Origin: Paludibacteraceae bacterium
Lineage (GTDB): Bacteria > Bacteroidota > Bacteroidia > Bacteroidales > Paludibacteraceae
Length of the DNA: 64,000 nucleotides
Reading direction: 5' to 3'
Assembly: GCA_028694915.1 (NCBI GenBank)
Contig: JAQVJY010000002.1
Coordinates: forward strand, 128,401 to 192,400
The translations under genes were made by a program, and so were the position numbers. The notes under the pieces were generated by a model. It did not search any database, was not told the DNA's origin, and worked only from the letters and a program-made list of their open reading frames with translations. Below, piece after piece: positions 17,323-64,000 of this stretch (positions are counted from its first letter, which is position 1; every line of letters starts with the position of its first letter).

Positions 17323-18246
17323 TTACCACACTACCACTTTTTCTTGTGCGGCACCAACTTTTACAAGGTAAACGCCTTGTGGCAAAGCTATGTGGCTTGT
17401 GCCTGCTGTGTGCATGTTTTCGTACACTTTGCCGCCTGTAAGCGTGTACACCGCCACGGGAGTTGATGCGTCTGATGTAAGCAATACACTACCTTTACCG
17501 CTATAGAGCGCTACACTAGGTTCTAAAACCGCATGAACCGCAGTGGGTGTAACAGCTTGAATAGTGCCGAAATTTTTCCATGTCGAAGCCCCCTGATAAG
17601 CACTTACACTGCCGGACGGAACTGATAAAGTAGCAGTAGCTATAGATGTAGATGTAGTACCTCCAAATGTTCCATTTACTTCTGGAGGAGTTACAGCAAG
17701 GCAGGTTACATCTATGAGCAGCGGACAGTCAACAAACACATAATTCATTTTAATCATTCCCGTACCTATCTTTACGGTTTGTAAGTTAGAACAGTCATTA
17801 AAAGTATACAAACCAATAAATTTCACACCATTGCCAAGCTCTACCGAAGTTAAAGCTGTGCACCCATAAAAAGCAAACGCTTCAATGGTATCGACAGAAT
17901 TTGGAATGAGCATGCTCGTAATTCCTGTATCCCTTAATGCATGTGATCCAATTTTTTTTACTGTTTCAGGCAGTGTTACTGAAGTTAGTGAAGGTTTATT
18001 CTTCAATCCATAATTAGCAAGTTCAGTAACAGTATAGGTAGTAGCACCATTCATAACTGTAGCCGGAATGTTAGCTGTTGTTCCAACAAAACTGACACTT
18101 TCGCCCACAGCTACTTCATTTGGATCTTCAGATAAAATTACATACTCAATACCGTCTACGGTAAACTTGTCGCCCACGGCAGCCTTGAGTATACCAGTTG
18201 CTAAAAAAGCAACTACTAAAAATGTAAACATGTGTTTCATAGTCAT
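17323..18246 (-). CDS. Secreted BspA-type leucine-rich-repeat protein with T9SS C-terminal signal
   Basis: 307-residue exported protein. A signal peptide (hydrophobic FTFLVVAFLATGILKA) is followed by about four BspA-like LRR units, e.g. SLTSVTLPETVKKIGSHALR and ALTSVELGNGVKFIGLYTF, of the kind found in surface proteins of Bacteroidetes. The C terminus AVYTLTGGKVYENMHTA ... LPQGVYLVKVG ... EKVVVW is a typical type A T9SS sorting domain, needed for export and anchoring through the system to which PorQ belongs. Start could be residue 1 or the Met at residue 3. Ligand and role are unknown; adhesion is the usual inference for this class. Confidence 0.85.
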   Translation of the reverse strand: MTMKHMFTFLVVAFLATGILKAAVGDKFTVDGIEYVILSEDPNEVAVGESVSFVGTTANIPATVMNGATTYTVTELANYGLKNKPSLTSVTLPETVKKIGSHALRDTGITSMLIPNSVDTIEAFAFYGCTALTSVELGNGVKFIGLYTFNDCSNLQTVKIGTGMIKMNYVFVDCPLLIDVTCLAVTPPEVNGTFGGTTSTSIATATLSVPSGSVSAYQGASTWKNFGTIQAVTPTAVHAVLEPSVALYSGKGSVLLTSDASTPVAVYTLTGGKVYENMHTAGTSHIALPQGVYLVKVGAAQEKVVVW

Positions 18247-45966: not shown

Positions 45967-47460
45967 TTATTGTGCATAGTGTCGATATGGTAGTAACTCT
46001 TCTAATTCTTTTTTGATCTCGTCTGTTTTATTCATTAACAACAGATTGAAATCCCAATCAACTAATTTTTCTTTTTTGGCTTTTCCAAGGAGGGCTTTGT
46101 CGTTAATATTATCGTTGATGTTTTTTAATTTTTTGGGTTTACTTTGTTCGTCACCACTGTATGTTTCGATGTATTTGCCTGTCACACTAAGTGATACGGT
46201 ACCTGGTTTTTCGATGGTTGCTACTACTCGGGTGCTATCTTCACGCAGGTCGATTATTTTAAATGCATAATTCAGTGTGATGGTAGATGTTGTCCAATTG
46301 GTTTCTACTACGCCTTTGTATGCTACAAAATTGGCAGCGTTTACAATAGATTCTTTTCCTTTTTCGTATTCGCGAGCACTGATACTTTTTTCAATCAATT
46401 TGCCATTTTTTGCGGTGCGTTCTACGTATTGAATGATGTCTTTATCTTTTTTCCCGTCTTCATGTTTGCACGTATATTTACCAAATGTTTTAGCATCGTA
46501 GACTAGTATTAGTGCACATTTTTTGTCGACTAATTGTTTTTTAGTGAGTCCTTCGTAACCACTAAACGTAACATATTCAGGGAATTCTTTCTCTAATTTT
46601 TTGATAGTTTTGGGATTCAGAGTTATAGATGTATCGCCATGTTCTTCCATCACGGCAATGGTCAGTGCGCCGCGTTTACGAGCCAATTCTGCTTTTAGTT
46701 TCGCATCTTTATAATTGCCAACAAGTTCGTAAGCCGTGATCGCTTTGTATTGATCTTTGTAGTTGCGATCTTTGAACAATTTTTCGGTATCTTTGTAAAA
46801 TTCTTCCTGTAATTTTTCATGTTCGGTGGCTATTTGTGCCATAGTTTCCGGATTTTCGGCATTATGTTGCGCTATATCATTCAAAATGGTGAGGGCTGTT
46901 GCTTTATCGCTTGTTTTCCACGATTTGGCCAATTCCAATGCGCGAGGAAGTAAAATTTCTTTTTTGAGTTGATTAATTGCAGAGTCGTTTTTGCTAGCAA
47001 ATGCTGAAGCTTTGTCGAGTAGACCAAATGCGGTTAATTGTTTATCCAGATTTTTAGATTTTTCGAGTTCTTGTTTCCCTTTTGCGAAATACAAATCACA
47101 TGTTTTTTGTTTCGCGGCGATCCACGGTGTTTCAAAATCTAAATTGTCGACTTTGAAAGATAGAACGCCCATTTGAGCCAATTTTTCCATCGTGTTTTGT
47201 AGAGCTACCCAATCGCCACCTTGAACGGCGACTTGTTCTTGTGCGGTTTCTTTTTTGGCTGCCGCAGATTGCAACTTGTTAATTTCGCTGAGAGCTTTTT
47301 TATAATCACTTTTCAGGTCGTTCACATGGCTTTTTGTAGCATCTTTACTTACTATTTCGGCGCTTTTAATGGCTTTTTTTACGGCTGTTTGTCCCCAAGT
47401 TGGCGTAGTTCCTACTACCATCAAGCTTAGTACGAGTGCTAGTGTTACTAATTTTTTCAT
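45967..47460 (-). CDS. Secreted protein of unknown function
   Basis: 497-residue protein with a clear signal peptide (KKLVTLALVLSLMVVGTTPTWG-Q). The first 250 residues are helical and rich in Lys/Glu/Ala, with a coiled-coil-like stretch (residues 25-75) and repeated short helices resembling TPR-like units; the C-terminal half is beta-rich (KIIDLREDSTRVVATIEK, GTVSLSVTGKYIETYSG). There is no lipobox and no obvious T9SS signal at the C terminus (ELEELLPYRHYAQ). The gene is between recG and dgkA, 28 bases from recG, with no own promoter seen. I do not recognise the family. Confidence 0.8.
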   Translation of the reverse strand: MKKLVTLALVLSLMVVGTTPTWGQTAVKKAIKSAEIVSKDATKSHVNDLKSDYKKALSEINKLQSAAAKKETAQEQVAVQGGDWVALQNTMEKLAQMGVLSFKVDNLDFETPWIAAKQKTCDLYFAKGKQELEKSKNLDKQLTAFGLLDKASAFASKNDSAINQLKKEILLPRALELAKSWKTSDKATALTILNDIAQHNAENPETMAQIATEHEKLQEEFYKDTEKLFKDRNYKDQYKAITAYELVGNYKDAKLKAELARKRGALTIAVMEEHGDTSITLNPKTIKKLEKEFPEYVTFSGYEGLTKKQLVDKKCALILVYDAKTFGKYTCKHEDGKKDKDIIQYVERTAKNGKLIEKSISAREYEKGKESIVNAANFVAYKGVVETNWTTSTITLNYAFKIIDLREDSTRVVATIEKPGTVSLSVTGKYIETYSGDEQSKPKKLKNINDNINDKALLGKAKKEKLVDWDFNLLLMNKTDEIKKELEELLPYRHYAQ

Positions 47461-53690: not shown

Positions 53691-56600
53691 ATGAATCGCC
53701 TACAATCTAGTTTCATTATTTTAGTAATCGTTTTTCTGGGCTTTGTTCAGTCTGGTACCGCCCAAACGCTTACTGCTAATCCTGCAACGCCAGTTTGTTC
53801 TGGAACTCCGGTAACGCTTACAGCGACAGGAGGCGCTAGTTATATTTGGAGTACAGGAGAGATAGGTTCCGCTATTGTGGTTACACCTGCTGTTTCCACT
53901 CATTACGAGGTGATTGTTAAGGATGCTTCGGAAGTGGCCATTGATACGTTAACTTTGGATGTGACGGTTTTACCACTCCCGACAATAAGTATTGATAGTG
54001 ATCCATCTGTGTGCGCTGGACAACCTATAACTTTGACTGCTATTGGAACAGGCACTTTTTTATGGAAGAATGGCTCAAATGGTAATTCTATTACGGTAAC
54101 TCCAGCCACTGATACTGAATATTGGGTTGAGATAACTGATGCTAATGGATGTAAAAATAGAGCGTATAAGACTATTCAAGTAAATGCATTACCAACTGTA
54201 TCAATATCTGGTCCTACAGAAGTTTGTATTGGTGGAACCGTTTCATTGGTAGCTAACGGTGGAGTTGGTTTTCTTTGGGATGACCCTCTTGCTACAGCAT
54301 CAAAAACTTTGATAGTTGCTCCACTAGTTACCACAACTTATCATTGTGAAATAGTTGATGCCAATGGTTGTATGAGTATTGCTAGCCATACAGTAAATGT
54401 TACGCCTGCTTTAACGCCCACTATTTCTGGTATCAATCAAATTTGTGTCGGCGGAAATACTATCTTGACGGCTTATCCTGCTGGCGCTAGTTATGAATGG
54501 AATAATAATGCAACGACTCGTAGCATTACAGTTTCTCCAGGCGTCACTACAGATTATACTGTTATTGTTACAAAAGATGGTTGTACAGCGTCAGCTACTC
54601 AAACTATTACGGTCAATCAAAAGCCTACTCCTCAAATCGCAGGACAGAATACCATTTGTCGTGGCGAAATGACTACTTTAACGGCTTCGGCCGTGGAGCC
54701 TGGTTCATATTCTTATTTGTGGAATACTGGCGCTACTACTGCAGATATTCAAGTTGCTCCTTTGACAACAACTTCTTATTCAGTAACTGTTACTAATCAA
54801 ACTACAGGTTGTTCCAATAGCACAACTCAAATTGTTACAGTTGATGCATCGGCAAATCCTACAATTATTGGTCCTGCAACGGTTTGTAGTGGTTCTTCTA
54901 TAACTTTGACCGCTTCAGCAGGGGCTTTTCACTTGTGGGATGATGATTTAGCTAGCGAAAGCCAGTCTATCAGTGTAAGTCCTACCAGTGATAGAATTTA
55001 TACTGTTTGGGTTACAAATGCTGCTGGTTGTACCTATTCTGCAACCCACTCTGTAACTGTTACGGATGCCCCAGGTACTATTATTTCAGGTATTCATACC
55101 ATTTGCAAAGGTGGTTCCACAACCTTAACTGCACCTGCTGGTGATTCATACAGTTGGAGCAATGGTTCTACGCAGCCATCAATCACAGTGACGCCAGCTT
55201 CTACAACTGATTATTATGTAGATGTTACAAAAGGCTCTTGTGTGGTACGAGCTACACAACAGGTAACAGTAAATGAACCAATTCCTGCAACAATTACTGG
55301 CTTAAATAGCATTTGTGGGAATGCTTCAACTGGTATTACTTTGACTGCATCGGCAGGAACTGATTATTTGTGGAGTACTGGTGAAACTACGCCATCTATA
55401 AGTGTTTCGCCTGCGTCGTCTACCGTTTATTCGGTTACTGTTACTGATAACAATGGCTGTACGTCTAATGCATCGCACTTGGTGTCAGTTACACCATTAC
55501 CTAATTTAACAATTACTGGTGCGACGACTGTGTGCGAGGGTAATCCTATTGAGTTGACAGTTTCGGGAGCTCCTGCTGGAAGTACTTATCTTTGGAGTGA
55601 TGCAACCAATGCTGTGTCGATGACAACTACTGCCACAACTACTCAAACGTATACGGTTGATGTTACTACCAATGGTTGCACACAGACTTTGAGTCAAAAC
55701 GTAACTGTTGTTCCATTACCAACAGGAGTTATTACTGGCATCTTTACTATTTGTCAAGGTTCAACCACTACGCTGACAGCACCTGCTGGTGGTGTAAGTT
55801 ATTATTGGGAAACCACAGGGGAAACGACTCGCAGTATTACTACCGATCCTTTATTTGGGAATCAAACTTATAAGGTAAAAATTGTTTATGCTGGTGGTTG
55901 TGAACAAAATTTAACCCAAGATGTTACGGTAGTCAATCCTCCTACTGGTACAATTACAGGCACAACTGATATTTGTTTGGATGAAGAGGTTAATTTAACT
56001 GTTACAGCACCAGATGCTGTAGATTATACATGGAGTAATGGTGTTGTTGGTTCTAGTATTATGTCGGATGTTCCCACTACGGCTGGCGTTAAAACCTATT
56101 GGGTAGATATTACTAACGCTACAGGTTGTACTAGTAGAATAATACAAAATGTAAATGTGGTAGCAAAACCTTCTGCTACAGTTGTTGGACCTACTTCATT
56201 CTGTTTAGGTGAGACCCTTACACTAACGGCTAATGGTGGAACTTCTTGGTTCTGGCATCATGATGGTAGTACAACTCAGACGGCTTCGGTTACACCAACA
56301 GCCACAACCACTTATACTGTTTCGGTATTTAATGCTCAAGGTTGTGAAACTATATTGAATCATCAAGTAACATTAGTGCCTCCTCCAACTCCTCTTATTA
56401 CAGGGGATTTATCAATCTGTTTAGGTCAAAGTACTACTTTATTGGCAACTGGTGGTACGGTAGTTCAATGGAGCACAGGTGCAACGAGTCAAAGTATTAC
56501 CTTAACTCCTGCTGGCACTGGCACTCTGAATCTTTGGGTGGAAGTTGAAAATGCTAACGGTTGTAAACAAACCGCTAATGCTAGTTTAGTTGTTGCAGCT

Positions 56601-59600
56601 ATGCCTACGGCTGCTATATCTGCAAGTGATGATGTTATCTGCAATGGTGATGCAGTCACTTTAACTGCTACTCCAGGTGCAGCTGCTTATACATGGAGTA
56701 ATGGTGTTACTAACACCAATGAAATTATAGTAACTCCAACGGCTTCTCAAAATTATTGGGTTGATGTTACCAATAACGAAGGTTGTACCGTTCGTGCTAA
56801 CAAATTAATAACAGTCAATGAACCTGCTTTGGTTTCTATTTCGGGTGCAACTACAGCTTGCGTAGGTGCTTCTACCACATTAACGGCTGTTGGCGGTGTT
56901 GCTTGGTCTTGGTCGCATGGATTAGGATCTAGTAATTCGGTTGTAGTAAATCCTTCTACTACGACAACCTATACTTGCGCTATTACAGATGCAAATGGAT
57001 GTATTTCTACGGCAACGCATACGCTTAATGTAACTCCTGTTACAGCACCTTCTATTACTGGTAACTTATTGATATGTAAGGGTGGTAATACTACGTTGAC
57101 ATCAAGTACAGCCGATAGTTATTTATGGATGCCAGGTAACATTACTACAGCGTCCTTAAATATAATTGGATTGAATGCTTCTACGGATTATACTTTGACT
57201 GTAACAATAGGTGGTTGCACAGCATCCAAAACTGTTCGTGTTGATGTTGTTGATCCTCCAACAGATGCCGTCATTAATGGCTCTGACGAAGTTTGTGAAG
57301 GTAGTAGTGTTGTTTTAACTGCTGGCGGTACGGCTACGAATTATTTGTGGAGTACTGGTGAAACCACTCAAAGTATTACTGTAACTCCAACTCTCGCAAG
57401 TCATAGTTATTCTTTAACTGTCACGAATGGTGTGGCAGGATGTTCTCAAACTGTTACAAAAGATATTACTGTAAAAACAAAACCTGCGGTTAGTATTTCG
57501 GGTAATTCTTCAGTTTGTTTGGGTGAAAGCCTTACGCTTACTGCAAATGGTACAGGAACTTTTGTTTGGGATGATGGCACGGTTGGAAATACATTAACGG
57601 TAACTCCTCCCGTAACTCGTAACTACACTGTGACAATTACTAATAATGGTTGTACGAATACCGCTACCAAGACAATTACCGTAAATCCATTGCCAATAGC
57701 ATCTGTTAGTGGTGTTACAGACATTTGTATTGGTGGAACAACCACTCTGACCGCCACTGGTGGTGATAGTTATTTTTGGACAGAGCTTGGAACAAGTGGT
57801 GCCGTTGTTAGTGTTAGCCCACTCGTAAATACAACTTATCATGTTGTGGTTACCAACACAACTACTGGTTGCCAAAATACTGCTGCTGTAACCGTCAATG
57901 TTCATGCTTTACCAACGCCTAATATAACAGGTACAACTACTATTTGTGCTGGTCAATCAACTACGTTGACAGCAACAGGTGGTACAAGTTATTTATGGAA
58001 TGATGGTGTGACTACTGCTGTTCGCATTGTGAATCCATTGGTAACAACTACATATACTGTGGCAGTAACTAACGCCGCAGGTTGTACCGCATCTACAAGT
58101 AAACAAGTAATTGTAAATGCACTTCCAACGCCTTCAATTACAGGTCCAACAGTTGCTTGTAAAAACTCTTCAGTGACACTTACTGCAGCAGGTGGAGATT
58201 CTTATGTGTGGAGTACAGGTGAAACAACACAATCGATTACACCTATTATATATAGCACGACCACTTATACTGTTACGGTTAAAAATGCTAATAATTGTGA
58301 AGCAACTACGACTCATACGGTAACTATGAACCCAGCACCGACTGCGACTATAGCTGGTGATTTAGATATTTGCGTAGGTCAAACGACTACTTTGACAGCG
58401 TCTGGTGGTGCATCTTATAAATGGTTGCATGGTCCAACAACTGCGTCTATAACTGTAAGCCCTGCAGCAACTACTACTTACGAGGTGGAAGTAACCGATG
58501 CTAACGGTTGTAAAGCGACAGCTACAAGTACTGTGGTGGTTAATCCACTTCCTACCGCAGGCATTACAGGTGATTCGGAAGTTTGCGAGGGTTCATCGGT
58601 ACAATTGACCGCCACTGGTGGTGTATCCTATTTATGGACTCCTGGCAATATGACTTCTCAAACTGTAGATGTATCTCCAACAGTAAATACAGTTTACTCA
58701 GTCGTTGTTACTGGTAATGGAGGTTGTACTGCTACAGCCAATCATGCCGTAACAGTTAAACAAATTGTCGGACTAGGTATTAGTGGTGCCACAACTAGTT
58801 GTGCGGGAGAACCAGTTTCTTTGACTGCATCAGGTGGAGATTCTTACGTGTGGGACGGTGGATTTGGAGCTACAGCTACTATTACCGTCTCTCCAAATGT
58901 GACAACAACTTATTATGTGACAATCACTAAAAATGGTTGTTCTAAAAAATTAGGACATACTATTACAGTTACTCCAAAACCAACTATTACAATAACTGGT
59001 AAACAGGACGTTTGTGTGGGCGAAGCGACGGCTTTAGTTGCCTCTGGAGCACAAAGTTATATTTGGAGCAATGGTGTGAATACACAAACCAACACCGTAA
59101 CCTTAATGGCCGTTGGTTCTCAAACTTATACTGTTACAGGTACCGACGCTAGTGGTTGTACCAATTCAGTGTCTGTTACCGTTACCGCTCATGCTGCACC
59201 TACGGCAACTATTTCTGGTTCAACTCAAACATGTGCTGGCACCGGAGTTACTTTAACAGCTGGCGGTACAGGTACAAGCTACTTGTGGAGTACAGGTGAG
59301 ACGGCGTCTTCTATTTTTGTTAATCCTGCAGCAACTACAAATTATACTTTAGTAACTTATAATGCTCAAGGTTGCCCAAGTGGACAAGCTGTGCATACAT
59401 TAACTGTAAACCCTGTTCCAACAGCTTCCATTACAGGTCCAACAATTGCTTGCAAAAATGCTTCAGTAACATTGACCGCAGCCGGTGGTACAAGTTATTT
59501 ATGGAGCACAGGTGAAACTACGCAATCCATTACGCCAACTATTACTAATAATATTACTTATACGGTAACTGTAACAGATAATAAAGGTTGTACTGCTACT

Positions 59601-62600
59601 ACTAATCATGCTGTAATGGTTATTCCTGAAAGTGTAATTAATATTTCGGGCGATTTAGATATTTGTGTTGGTGAGACTACCACGTTAACAGCATCAGGTG
59701 TTCCTAGCGGAACCTATCTCTGGAGCAATGGACAAGGAGGTGCTTCTATAACTGTTTCACCAGCTTCCGAAACAACTTATACTGTTACGGCTACTGATGG
59801 TAATGGCTGTCAGTCAACAGGATTTGTTACAGTGAAAGTCAATGCATTGCCAACGGCAAGTATCATTGGGAATACTGACATTTGTCCTGGTGAAACCACT
59901 ACTTTAACAGCTAGTGCAGGTCAATCATGGTTATGGACTCCCGGTAATTATACAACGCAGTCAATTAATGTTACGCCAGCAGTAACCACTACTTATAGTG
60001 TTATTATAACCAATGCTAGTGGATGTACAGCAACTACAACACATACTGTATCGTTAAAATCGGTTGTCGCAGGAACTATTAGTGGCCCTACGACAAGTTG
60101 TGCTGGAGAAACTATGACTTTAACAGCATCAGGTGGTTCTGTACTTTGGGATAATGGTGCAACAACGGCATCCATTAACGTGTCGCCAACAGCAACTACT
60201 ACTTATTATGCAACTATTACTGGTGCTAATGGCTGTTCTATAACTAAAGATCATACTATTACTATTACTCCTAAACCAACCATTAATATTGTAGGTAATA
60301 CAGATATTTGTTTAGGTCAAAGTACCACATTAACCGCTAGTGGCGCTTCTTCTTATACATGGGATAATGGTTCGATAGGTCAATCAATTGTGGTCTCGCC
60401 AACGTTAACTCAAACGTATGTTGTGACAGGTACTGATGCCAACGGTTGTACAAATACGAAGTCTATTACTGTTACAGTGAATCCAATTCCTGTAGCATCT
60501 ATCGCTGGCGATAATGCTATCTGCGAAGGTGAATTTACAGTGTTAACGGCTTCTGGTGGATCGAGCTATACATGGAGCACGGGTGCTACAGGTGCCACTC
60601 TTATGGTGAATCCAACCACCACTACAACTTACTCTGTTATTGCTAAAAGTGTTTCCGGTTGTGAAAGTGCAGCTGCTAATGTAACAGTTACTGTAACTCC
60701 TAAGCCAGTGGCAACTATTACTGGTGTAACCGAGGTTTGTAAAGGTGAGGTAGTGACTTTAACGGCTAATGGAGGAACTTCATATGTTTGGAGTACTGGC
60801 GAAACTACACAAAGTATTTCCCCTGTAATTAATGCTACAACATTATTTACTGTTACGGTGAAAAATGCTGCTGGTTGTGAAACTACAGCCACTCATTCGG
60901 TAACAGCAAATCCATTGCCTGTAGCAAGTATTTCAGGCGATTTAGATATTTGTGTTGGCGAAAGTACAACATTAACAGCCGTTGGCGGTGGTGCTGGCGG
61001 TTCTTATAATTGGGATCATGGTGCAGCTACTGCTAGCGTAACTGTTACTCCTACAACTGATACAGAATACATTGTTACAGTAACAGATGCTAACGGTTGT
61101 AAAGCTGAAGCACGAGCTACAGTACGTGTTTATGCAAAACCTAATCCAACTATTTCGGGTGATGTTAGTATTTGTTTAGGCGAATCGGCAACTCTTACAG
61201 CCAACACTGGTACGGCTTGGTTCTGGACTCCTGGTGGAGCTACTACTCAGTCTATAAACGTAACGCCTTCAGCAACTACTACTTACGCTGTTGAAGTAAC
61301 AGGCTTGGGTGGTTGTAAAGCTACGGCCAATCATACCGTGACTATTAAGGATCCTGTGGTGGGTACCGTGAGCGGTCCAACTACAAGTTGTGCAGGAGAA
61401 GTTGTGACTTTAATTGCCAATGGTGGACAAACATATAGATGGGATGATAATGTGATGGACGGTGCTACATTGGTAGTAACACCAAATGCAACAACAACTT
61501 ATTATGTAAATATTACAGGTAGCAATGGTTGTGTTACACGTATCGGACACACTATTACGGTAAATCCAAAACCAACAATTGGGGTATCTGGTAATTTAAA
61601 TATTTGCAAAGGTGCAAGCACTACTTTAACAGCGAGTGGCGGCGTTAGTTACTTATGGAATACAGGTGTTAATACAGCAAGTATTACCGTGAATCCATTA
61701 GTGAATACACCTTATACTGTTACCGTAACTGACTCAAAAGGCTGTACCAATACTAAAACTGTAGACGTCACAGTAACTGATATTCCTGTCGCTAATATTA
61801 CTGGCACAAATGCAGTTTGCGAAGGTTCATCTACCACATTGACTGCTTCTGGTGGAGCTGGTTATTTGTGGAGTACAGGTGCTACAACGTCTAGTGTTAC
61901 GGTTAGTCCTTTGACTACTACTACATATACGGTAGTAGCTACTACAGGTTCATGTGTAAGCGATCCGTTTCCATATACTGTTACTGTAACTCCAAAACCA
62001 ATCATTGGATTAACAGGTGATTCAGAAATTTGTGAAGGTGAAACAGCGGTAGTTACGGCTACGGGTGGTGATACATATGTTTGGAGTACAGGTCAAACCG
62101 GTGCAAGTATAACAACAGCTCCATTAAATTCTACCACTGTATTAACTGTTACTGCTACTAAAGGCGGATGTACTAATACAGCTCAACAAACAATTGTTGT
62201 CAATAAAAAACCTGTCATAACTATTTATGGTGATTTAGATTTATGTGCTGGTGAGCAAACCACTTTGACAGCTACTGCTGGTCAATCTTACTTATGGAGC
62301 AATGGTGCCACAACTCAAAGTATTACCTTGACCCCATTGGCTGATACAAATGTGTCTGTACAAGTAACGGATAATAAAGGTTGTGTTGGTCAGGCTTCGG
62401 TTAATGTGCTTGTTCATGCTTTACCAACCGCTGGTATTGTTACTAACACTGGTTTATCTTCTGTTTGTCGTGGTAAATCCATTACGTTGACCGCTAGTGG
62501 TGGAACTTCGTATGTTTGGGAAACTGGCGAGCGTACAGCGAGTATTACGGTGTCCCCATTAACTGAAACTACTTATCGTGTTCAAGCGTTTGGCGATGGC

Positions 62601-64000
62601 GGTTGTAGTACAACGGCTCAAATCACAATTCAAGTACTCGATTTACCAACAGCTTCTGTTACAGGTCCACTGGTTGGATGTGCAGGTGATAATATTACAT
62701 TAACTGCTTCTGCAGGTACTAATTGGTTGTGGAGTACAGGTGCCACAACTCAAACCATAACGATTGTAGCTCCTCCTGTAGGTAGAACAGAATATACTGT
62801 GGACATATTTAATGCTGCAGGATGTTCTAGCACAGCTATGCATGCGGTAGTCATAAGTGCTTTGCCTAATGCTGCCATCAATGGCGATTTGGATATTTGT
62901 GTGGGTGAAAGTACTATATTAACAGCTTCTGGTGGTGATACTTATTTGTGGGATGATGGTTCTACGGGTGCTACTCGTACGGTAACACCAGCTTCAACAC
63001 AATCATATAGTGTAACGGCGACTAAGAATGGCTGTTCTAAAACTGTTTCGGTTACTGTAAATGTGAATGCTCTTCCAACGCCTTCTATTAGTGGTACAGC
63101 TGACATTTGTAATGGTCAATCATCACTTTTAACAGCAAATGGCGGAGGTTCTTATTATCGTTGGAGTACAGGCCAAGCTGGTCCTGCAATGACTAGTATT
63201 TTAGTAAGTCCAAATACAACAACCGTTTATGAAGTGGAAGTTACCAATGCAAGCGGTTGTAAAAATACGGCTCAATTTGAAGTACGCGTTACGCAAGTTG
63301 CCGCGCCAACTATTTCAGCTCCTAAATTAACTATTTGTGCTGGCGAAAGTGTTACTTTAACTTCTAGTGCAGCTCCATTCTATCAATGGAGTAGCAATGC
63401 GGGTGCCTCATTAAACAGTCAATCTGTGACAGTATCGCCAACAACAACGACTACATACACAGTAACCACTACTAATAACTTAGGTTGTATTAGTTCAGCT
63501 TCTATTACTATCAATGTAATAGCATTGCCAATACCAACTATTACAGGTAACAATAAAGTATGTCTTGGCAGCAGTACAACGTTGACTGCTAATGGTGGTG
63601 TAAGTTATCGTTGGAATACTGGTGCAACCACTCAAAGTATTAATGTATCACCTACAGATAATACAACTTATAGTGTAGTGGCCACAAATGCTCAAGGTTG
63701 CGAAAATACAATTCCTGTTACATTTACAGTACAGGTTAATCCTACGCCAACAGTATCAATCCTTGGTGTAGCACGTATTTGTCGTGGAACAAGCACAGTA
63801 TTACAAGCTACTGGTGGTGTTGGTTTCTTATGGGCAGATGGTAGAACAACGCAAAGTATAACTGTAAGTCCAAGTACTACGACTACGTATTCTTGTACTA
63901 TCACGGATAATAATGGTTGTTCGGCACAAGCCATGTGGACTGTTACAGTTGATGATATTCCGGTTCCATCTATTGTTGGAGCAACTACTATTTGTGCTGG
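53691..64000 (+). CDS. Giant secreted Ig/PKD-like repeat protein (3' end beyond window)
   Basis: At least 3436 codons, still open at the window end. ATG at 53691 starts a signal peptide (SSFIILVIVFLGFVQSGTAQ), followed at once by tandem domains of 70-76 residues. Each domain runs: ICxGxxTTLTAxGGxSYxW, then STGxTTxSITVxPxxTTTY, then VTDxxGC and a closing strand with a Pro-rich linker and ISG. This is the PKD/Ig-like repeat type seen in Bacteroidetes adhesins and gliding-motility proteins such as SprB. Two cysteines per unit probably form a disulfide; unit 1 lacks the second. Export by the T9SS is likely given PorQ, but the C terminus that would show the sorting signal is not in the window. No catalytic domain is seen. 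Confidence 0.9.
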   Translation, partial: MNRLQSSFIILVIVFLGFVQSGTAQTLTANPATPVCSGTPVTLTATGGASYIWSTGEIGSAIVVTPAVSTHYEVIVKDASEVAIDTLTLDVTVLPLPTISIDSDPSVCAGQPITLTAIGTGTFLWKNGSNGNSITVTPATDTEYWVEITDANGCKNRAYKTIQVNALPTVSISGPTEVCIGGTVSLVANGGVGFLWDDPLATASKTLIVAPLVTTTYHCEIVDANGCMSIASHTVNVTPALTPTISGINQICVGGNTILTAYPAGASYEWNNNATTRSITVSPGVTTDYTVIVTKDGCTASATQTITVNQKPTPQIAGQNTICRGEMTTLTASAVEPGSYSYLWNTGATTADIQVAPLTTTSYSVTVTNQTTGCSNSTTQIVTVDASANPTIIGPATVCSGSSITLTASAGAFHLWDDDLASESQSISVSPTSDRIYTVWVTNAAGCTYSATHSVTVTDAPGTIISGIHTICKGGSTTLTAPAGDSYSWSNGSTQPSITVTPASTTDYYVDVTKGSCVVRATQQVTVNEPIPATITGLNSICGNASTGITLTASAGTDYLWSTGETTPSISVSPASSTVYSVTVTDNNGCTSNASHLVSVTPLPNLTITGATTVCEGNPIELTVSGAPAGSTYLWSDATNAVSMTTTATTTQTYTVDVTTNGCTQTLSQNVTVVPLPTGVITGIFTICQGSTTTLTAPAGGVSYYWETTGETTRSITTDPLFGNQTYKVKIVYAGGCEQNLTQDVTVVNPPTGTITGTTDICLDEEVNLTVTAPDAVDYTWSNGVVGSSIMSDVPTTAGVKTYWVDITNATGCTSRIIQNVNVVAKPSATVVGPTSFCLGETLTLTANGGTSWFWHHDGSTTQTASVTPTATTTYTVSVFNAQGCETILNHQVTLVPPPTPLITGDLSICLGQSTTLLATGGTVVQWSTGATSQSITLTPAGTGTLNLWVEVENANGCKQTANASLVVAAMPTAAISASDDVICNGDAVTLTATPGAAAYTWSNGVTNTNEIIVTPTASQNYWVDVTNNEGCTVRANKLITVNEPALVSISGATTACVGASTTLTAVGGVAWSWSHGLGSSNSVVVNPSTTTTYTCAITDANGCISTATHTLNVTPVTAPSITGNLLICKGGNTTLTSSTADSYLWMPGNITTASLNIIGLNASTDYTLTVTIGGCTASKTVRVDVVDPPTDAVINGSDEVCEGSSVVLTAGGTATNYLWSTGETTQSITVTPTLASHSYSLTVTNGVAGCSQTVTKDITVKTKPAVSISGNSSVCLGESLTLTANGTGTFVWDDGTVGNTLTVTPPVTRNYTVTITNNGCTNTATKTITVNPLPIASVSGVTDICIGGTTTLTATGGDSYFWTELGTSGAVVSVSPLVNTTYHVVVTNTTTGCQNTAAVTVNVHALPTPNITGTTTICAGQSTTLTATGGTSYLWNDGVTTAVRIVNPLVTTTYTVAVTNAAGCTASTSKQVIVNALPTPSITGPTVACKNSSVTLTAAGGDSYVWSTGETTQSITPIIYSTTTYTVTVKNANNCEATTTHTVTMNPAPTATIAGDLDICVGQTTTLTASGGASYKWLHGPTTASITVSPAATTTYEVEVTDANGCKATATSTVVVNPLPTAGITGDSEVCEGSSVQLTATGGVSYLWTPGNMTSQTVDVSPTVNTVYSVVVTGNGGCTATANHAVTVKQIVGLGISGATTSCAGEPVSLTASGGDSYVWDGGFGATATITVSPNVTTTYYVTITKNGCSKKLGHTITVTPKPTITITGKQDVCVGEATALVASGAQSYIWSNGVNTQTNTVTLMAVGSQTYTVTGTDASGCTNSVSVTVTAHAAPTATISGSTQTCAGTGVTLTAGGTGTSYLWSTGETASSIFVNPAATTNYTLVTYNAQGCPSGQAVHTLTVNPVPTASITGPTIACKNASVTLTAAGGTSYLWSTGETTQSITPTITNNITYTVTVTDNKGCTATTNHAVMVIPESVINISGDLDICVGETTTLTASGVPSGTYLWSNGQGGASITVSPASETTYTVTATDGNGCQSTGFVTVKVNALPTASIIGNTDICPGETTTLTASAGQSWLWTPGNYTTQSINVTPAVTTTYSVIITNASGCTATTTHTVSLKSVVAGTISGPTTSCAGETMTLTASGGSVLWDNGATTASINVSPTATTTYYATITGANGCSITKDHTITITPKPTINIVGNTDICLGQSTTLTASGASSYTWDNGSIGQSIVVSPTLTQTYVVTGTDANGCTNTKSITVTVNPIPVASIAGDNAICEGEFTVLTASGGSSYTWSTGATGATLMVNPTTTTTYSVIAKSVSGCESAAANVTVTVTPKPVATITGVTEVCKGEVVTLTANGGTSYVWSTGETTQSISPVINATTLFTVTVKNAAGCETTATHSVTANPLPVASISGDLDICVGESTTLTAVGGGAGGSYNWDHGAATASVTVTPTTDTEYIVTVTDANGCKAEARATVRVYAKPNPTISGDVSICLGESATLTANTGTAWFWTPGGATTQSINVTPSATTTYAVEVTGLGGCKATANHTVTIKDPVVGTVSGPTTSCAGEVVTLIANGGQTYRWDDNVMDGATLVVTPNATTTYYVNITGSNGCVTRIGHTITVNPKPTIGVSGNLNICKGASTTLTASGGVSYLWNTGVNTASITVNPLVNTPYTVTVTDSKGCTNTKTVDVTVTDIPVANITGTNAVCEGSSTTLTASGGAGYLWSTGATTSSVTVSPLTTTTYTVVATTGSCVSDPFPYTVTVTPKPIIGLTGDSEICEGETAVVTATGGDTYVWSTGQTGASITTAPLNSTTVLTVTATKGGCTNTAQQTIVVNKKPVITIYGDLDLCAGEQTTLTATAGQSYLWSNGATTQSITLTPLADTNVSVQVTDNKGCVGQASVNVLVHALPTAGIVTNTGLSSVCRGKSITLTASGGTSYVWETGERTASITVSPLTETTYRVQAFGDGGCSTTAQITIQVLDLPTASVTGPLVGCAGDNITLTASAGTNWLWSTGATTQTITIVAPPVGRTEYTVDIFNAAGCSSTAMHAVVISALPNAAINGDLDICVGESTILTASGGDTYLWDDGSTGATRTVTPASTQSYSVTATKNGCSKTVSVTVNVNALPTPSISGTADICNGQSSLLTANGGGSYYRWSTGQAGPAMTSILVSPNTTTVYEVEVTNASGCKNTAQFEVRVTQVAAPTISAPKLTICAGESVTLTSSAAPFYQWSSNAGASLNSQSVTVSPTTTTTYTVTTTNNLGCISSASITINVIALPIPTITGNNKVCLGSSTTLTANGGVSYRWNTGATTQSINVSPTDNTTYSVVATNAQGCENTIPVTFTVQVNPTPTVSILGVARICRGTSTVLQATGGVGFLWADGRTTQSITVSPSTTTTYSCTITDNNGCSAQAMWTVTVDDIPVPSIVGATTICA
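53796..64000 (+). repeat. Tandem coding repeat array, 47 complete units plus start of a 48th
   Basis: Counting from the first conserved Cys codon of each unit, units begin at 53796, 54012, 54225, 54444, 54657, 54885 and so on to 63780 and 63993. All 47 spacings (210-228 bp, mean about 217) are multiples of three. Units diverge in DNA sequence, so this is an old protein repeat rather than a recent satellite. Every third unit shares features, giving a roughly 640-670 bp higher-order period. Confidence 0.88.
58158..62030 (+). repeat. Six-unit higher-order repeat, three copies
   Basis: Units 21-26, 27-32 and 33-38 correspond one to one. The blocks begin at 58158, 59451 and 60738, and the next begins at 62031 (periods 1293, 1287, 1293 bp). 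Signatures recurring in register: ACKN/VCKG with TTQSI(T/S)P, DLDICVG, WTPG, TTSCAGE with HTIT...PKPTI, GTD-type GCTN, and the sixth unit ending in a VNPxP or VTPKP linker. Confidence 0.8.

Follow-up and report, generated by a model that had tools for sequence, protein, structure and literature searches.

In current work on the T9SS, cargo with a type-A C-terminal domain (CTD) is assigned to the general shuttle PorV, and private barrels are kept for type-B cargo. In F. johnsoniae, PorV serves the type-A cargo, which has no private carrier, and SprB on which a type-A CTD has been put is either released or immobile (PMC12618676). In the same species SprF, which serves the giant gliding adhesin SprB as its carrier, and PorG each form a disulfide with Cys343 of GldK through a periplasmic Cys-X-Cys motif, which joins them to the moving track (PMC12635249). 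Among type-B cargo, a static one has the gene for the OmpA-type protein PorE in its operon and the mobile ones are without it (PMC12618676). A cargo-plus-carrier arrangement is known for the T9SS; what is both testable and unusual in the locus described here is the anchor.

The window, a stretch of 64,000 nucleotides from a member of the Paludibacteraceae, corresponds to G000:C38:128401-192400, where G000 denotes the host genome (2.09 Mb in 62 contigs, 99% complete). The nearest named loci belong to MAGs of this family. An open reading frame with an ATG start occupies positions 53691..63998 of the window (3,436 aa) with no stop before the window end, and continues past it as far as C38:201194, where its only stop codon ends a complete protein of 6,367 aa (L003:1-19104; L003 and the window segment are identical where they overlap). 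The features of the locus, by window position or by contig coordinate, are as follows.

53691..64000, plus strand: opening 3,436 codons of the gene for the giant putative T9SS adhesin, which continues beyond the window end
53691..53765, plus strand: putative signal peptide of about 25 residues (MNRLQSSFIILVIVFLGFVQSGTAQ), read from the translation by eye
53760..63998, plus strand: Ig_7 repeat array; of the 79 units detected in the whole protein, 47 lie complete in the window
C38:201194, plus strand: end of the giant gene
C38:201000-201185, plus strand: T9SS type-A sorting domain of the giant protein
C38:201231-202097: gene for the partner, a predicted outer-membrane barrel of 288 aa with the tail DCNCIRQ
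C38:202115-202723: gene for a thioredoxin-like neighbour, of uncertain membership in the module

The earlier note on this DNA had described one intact plus-strand frame running from a signal peptide off the window end, had read it as a giant repeat surface protein, and had raised the concern that the frame might soon stop without a sorting domain. No early stop occurs; the frame reaches a type-A domain, and the reading as a giant repeat surface protein exported in the Bacteroidota style is supported. Since there is one open frame and since orthologues from other assemblies are likewise intact (4,834 aa with 62 units in G042 and 2,700 aa with 33 units in G017), a frameshift or assembly artefact can be ruled out. 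Elsewhere in the window, a 497-aa open reading frame without a Pfam match (45967-47460, minus strand) lies in an otherwise ordinary row of genes (RecG, IspD, polyprenyl synthase, UvrB).

A repeat HMM built from the giant protein itself finds 79 units (78 at i-E<1e-3), mostly spaced 65-80 aa apart, of which exactly 47 end inside the window, the number that had been counted earlier from the letters. The first unit spans residues 24-93, directly behind the signal peptide, in agreement with the earlier observation that no N-terminal domain stands ahead of the array. As to the nature of the units, which had been called Ig/PKD-like, the Ig-like part of that description stands and the PKD part falls: Pfam Ig_7 (PF19081) matches the first 3,436 aa at 1e-114 and the last 3,034 aa at 7e-112, whereas PKD models give weak matches that all lie below their cut-offs, ruling out PKD as the repeat family. 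At the threshold used, Ig_7 was found in no other gene of the host genome. Identity between units of the protein has a median of about 40% and a maximum near 71% (BLAST matches longer than 55 aa). In the sister genome G001, the C-terminal 255 aa of the cargo are 93% identical to those of the host, and the available fragment matches the host array unit by unit with the order kept, full-length units agreeing at 88-100%. Set against G042, the host array agrees in position at its first two units only, and the number of units varies from 79 in the host to 62 in G042 and 33 in G017. To the extent that the G001 fragment allows a judgement, the array is therefore stable inside the genus, whereas from one genus to another it has been rebuilt.

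Among solved sequences the nearest is GhpA of Aureispira (5,898 aa), like the present protein a giant Bacteroidota protein with homologous Ig-like repeats; it matches the two halves at E values of 5e-86 and 2e-70, and GhpA fragments also appear in a fold search with the model of the C-terminal part. These matches raise the idea that the protein self-assembles into long hooks of the GhpA kind that catch other cells. However, the likeness to GhpA is confined to the repeats, the last 587 aa having no GhpA match, and common Ig-like repeats are no proof of common assembly. We consider such a grappling hook highly improbable.

The earlier note had proposed looking at the end of the protein for a T9SS type-A, type-B or gliding-associated C-terminal domain, and it is the type-A domain that is found there. 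TIGR04183 scores 23.3 bits against a cut-off of 23 by hmmscan, and 31.5 bits in the genome search; a profile of the C-terminus matches the solved type-A CTDs 5hfs, 7pq4, 5ag9 and 5ag8, RgpB CTD structures included. The type-B model TIGR04131 gave no match in the giant protein at E<=0.1 in an NCBIfam scan, and the type-B reading was dropped for that reason. The protein has what is expected of a type-A substrate, namely a CTD above cut-off, a signal peptide (recognised by eye) and T9SS genes in the same genome, which holds some 35 other type-A matches above cut-off. A further frame of type-A cargo lies in the window itself (match at 17335-17478, minus strand, 24.2 bits, in a 311-aa frame).

What matters most at the locus is the gene that follows. 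Its start lies 36 nt behind the stop of the giant gene, 8.8 kb past the window end, and its product of 288 aa has a signal peptide; the giant gene is, as gene order across genomes indicates, one half of a two-gene module. Two independent searches of 101 genomes were made, one with the cargo C-terminus and one with the partner protein as query, and 79 cargo places and 63 partner places from the resulting lists were compared. For 48 of the 63 partner places, a homologous cargo C-terminus ends 40-657 nt upstream on the same strand; the other 15 have no adjoining cargo match. The chance expectation of such pairing is well below one by a rough estimate in which each genome of 2.5 Mb has 1-2 cargo places, the space allowed is 1.5 kb and both strands count. 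Pairing extends to Myroides, Plebeiobacterium and other Bacteroidota, and across the phylum nearly every barrel found directly follows an open reading frame with a type-A-like CTD (phylum search: at least 16 of 396, with six candidates scored per genome). The Myroides examples come from named isolates and not from MAGs, with cargo of 1,862 and 2,025 aa and a barrel gene 1-2 nt past the stop (L130:4219-10633 and L131:3793-10696).

Within the host genome there are two more pairs. The second consists of a T9SS cargo of 1,874 aa and, behind it, a barrel protein of 661 aa whose C-terminal part is long (L125, from G000:C59, 6514-12138 and 4511-6496, minus strand); the third is divergent, an 860-aa cargo frame and a 377-aa barrel frame standing nearly end to start (G000:C22:281562-282056 and 282266-282952, plus strand). 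When the surroundings of 20 other type-A T9SS cargo genes of this genome were searched with the barrel HMM, no partner turned up. We found no type-A cargo with a private barrel in the open-licence literature, which is weak evidence, most subscription papers lying outside it.

These pairings bear on the ordinary account of a type-A protein, by which PorV shuttles it and PorU cleaves the CTD, after which the rest is either attached to A-LPS or released. On that account the barrel would be expressed together with the cargo as a helper in assembly, secretion or envelope stability and would not be an anchor. The HMM and RgpB structure matches of the CTD speak for this ordinary route, as do the many other type-A matches of the genome. 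A general helper, however, would not be expected to go with a particular subset of cargo throughout the phylum as this barrel does, and fusions to OmpA within the barrel family point to anchoring; we therefore regard the account as unlikely. The role of PorV with type-A cargo and a private barrel may also be reconciled, PorV exporting the giant protein and the barrel then capturing it. The region before the CTD is conserved and is predicted with high confidence to form separate beta domains, and it is the likeliest candidate for the contact with the barrel.

An AlphaFold2 model of the partner has eight main strands and a mean pLDDT of 74, with residues 279-288 forming a tail past the last strand (282-288 at low confidence). 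Since a signal peptide precedes the first strand and the number of strands is even, both ends of the barrel should be periplasmic, and we infer from the model that the tail faces the periplasm. OmpA, Ail and OmpW-type barrels are among the best Foldseek matches, at low TM-scores, and some relatives of the barrel match the generic family OMP_b-brl_2. The partner is neither of the two barrels with which it might be confused. For PorP/SprF (TIGR03519) it has no HMM match and an hhalign probability of 0.9% to the PorP of the host, which itself scores 185.6 bits; for PorG (NF052316) it has no match and an hhalign probability of 8.4%, and the true PorG of the genome is encoded at C38:91919-92473.

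As with SprB and SprF, a giant T9SS adhesin, here a putative one, has the gene of a barrel partner directly downstream, the place of a PorP/SprF-type carrier, and the partner ends in a Cys-X-Cys predicted to be periplasmic; SprB, however, has a type-B CTD and SprF is of the PorP family, whereas the present cargo carries a type-A CTD and its predicted 8-stranded barrel is unrelated to PorP by profile. PorG shares with the partner a small 8-stranded outer-membrane barrel and a cysteine-bearing C-tail, in F. johnsoniae the site of its bond to GldK Cys343 (PMC12635249), but it is a core part of the T9SS without paired cargo. The system of type-B cargo, PorP-like carrier and PorE likewise combines cargo, barrel and a periplasmic peptidoglycan anchor; in the family described here, by contrast, the cargo belongs to type A, and any OmpA domain forms one protein with the barrel.

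We collected 68 members of the barrel family, two of which ran off their stretch. Thirty have OmpA or another long C-terminal part, 31 have short tails and five end in Cys-X-Cys. Four of these five form one clade with 100/100 support, and the 30 OmpA or long-tailed and the 31 short-tailed members lie elsewhere in the tree. The four, the only close members with this tail, are 45-90% identical to the first member and are partners of giant repeat proteins; in all of them CNCIR stands at the C-terminus, with no more than one residue after it, and this invariant tail holds the only cysteines of the mature barrel. The fifth, an unpaired barrel on a separate branch (L105:1303-2154, G307), ends in CHCTRD; because it contains further cysteines and is not preceded by a cargo gene, it was accepted only as weak further support for the tail. 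In sequence terms, the family offers two tail options, OmpA or Cys-X-Cys, the same as those of static and mobile type-B cargo.

The proposed receiving end of such a tail is present in the host. Its genome has a PorP-K-L-M-N operon and a PorG with tail cysteines, and its PorK, which aligns with the solved PorK, contains Cys290 and Cys343. GldB scores 228.7 bits against a cut-off of 190, and a GldJ-like protein scores 281 bits, below its cut-off of 458 bits, such proteins being found family-wide. The PorK cysteine is invariant in all PorK and GldK, so its presence is not diagnostic, and with GldJ-like proteins family-wide neither sets the host genome apart; GldB and GldJ together were not accepted as proof of gliding. 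What the partner barrel does share with SprF and PorG is a Cys-X-Cys in a C-tail whose periplasmic side follows from the model, and by analogy the paired cysteines suggest a possible link between the barrel and the machinery of secretion or gliding that moves in the cell.

In both genomes of the genus, about 17 nt behind the barrel gene, lies a gene for a secreted protein that is thioredoxin-like and contains WCGPC. None was found behind the orthologous barrels of G017 (1 kb examined) or of G042 (whose contig extends only some 190 nt beyond the barrel, with a terminator-like repeat in that stretch), and the protein was not accepted as a part of the module for this reason. That it acts on the disulfide of the tail is a guess. 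Downstream of it in the host is a gene for a LuxR-type regulator (L004:1109-1750), in place of which G001 has a tRNA-like sequence (L126:4737-5340).

The same tail can be accommodated without movement. The barrel may fix the adhesin for attachment or aggregation, with the two cysteines bonded to each other within the barrel protein, binding a metal, or linked to some other protein of the periplasm. The OmpA or short tails of most family members suit a static anchor, and so does a thioredoxin-like neighbour that could reduce or shuffle the tail disulfide; the host, moreover, belongs to the Bacteroidales, and its GldJ-like protein, which scores under the cut-off and is shared by much of the family, does not establish a gliding track. 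On the other side, the spacing of the cysteines and their place in a periplasmic C-tail are those of SprF and PorG, both bonded to GldK (PMC12635249), and they are an addition to a type of barrel whose bare relatives stop at the last strand. We regard a purely static anchor as a serious alternative, though a less probable one than a linked tail.

The reading that we prefer, to which we give a probability of roughly 0.5, is that the protein is an adhesin held at the surface by a barrel of its own, the Cys-X-Cys tail of which would link it to the PorK/GldK ring or track. Sec would export the 6,367-aa adhesin with its approximately 80 Ig_7 domains, and the T9SS would move it across the outer membrane by way of the type-A CTD. 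The 8-stranded partner would hold it at the surface, probably by binding a conserved region that lies ahead of the sorting domain or within it. The periplasmic tail, by analogy with SprF and PorG, would form a disulfide with the conserved cysteine of PorK/GldK, which is Cys343 in the host, and in this way connect the adhesin with the PorKN ring or a GldJ/K/N track; related barrels bearing OmpA would tie their cargo to peptidoglycan instead. What the sequences show directly is the structure of the intact gene, its repeat family and type-A signal, the pairing across the phylum, the tail types and how they are distributed, and the presence of the T9SS core and of a GldJ-like protein. Adhesion, the binding of cargo by barrel and its anchoring, the bond of the tail to PorK and any movement we infer by analogy with SprF, PorG and PorP.

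More broadly and more tentatively, with odds somewhat against it as a whole, we propose a further class of T9SS cargo and carrier, consisting of type-A giant adhesins with private 8-stranded barrels not of the PorP family, in which one Paludibacteraceae clade would have gained an SprF-like Cys-X-Cys tail and with it a covalent tie to the PorKN ring or the GldJ/K/N track. The Bacteroidales would then have a giant adhesin that moves. If type-A cargo is paired with its own barrel throughout the phylum, Bacteroidota would have a means of attaching proteins to their surface that has so far gone unrecognised. The tail types of the barrel (OmpA, none or Cys-X-Cys) suggest that one barrel may be wired either to peptidoglycan or to a moving track, and they make the question of moving adhesins in the Bacteroidales directly testable.
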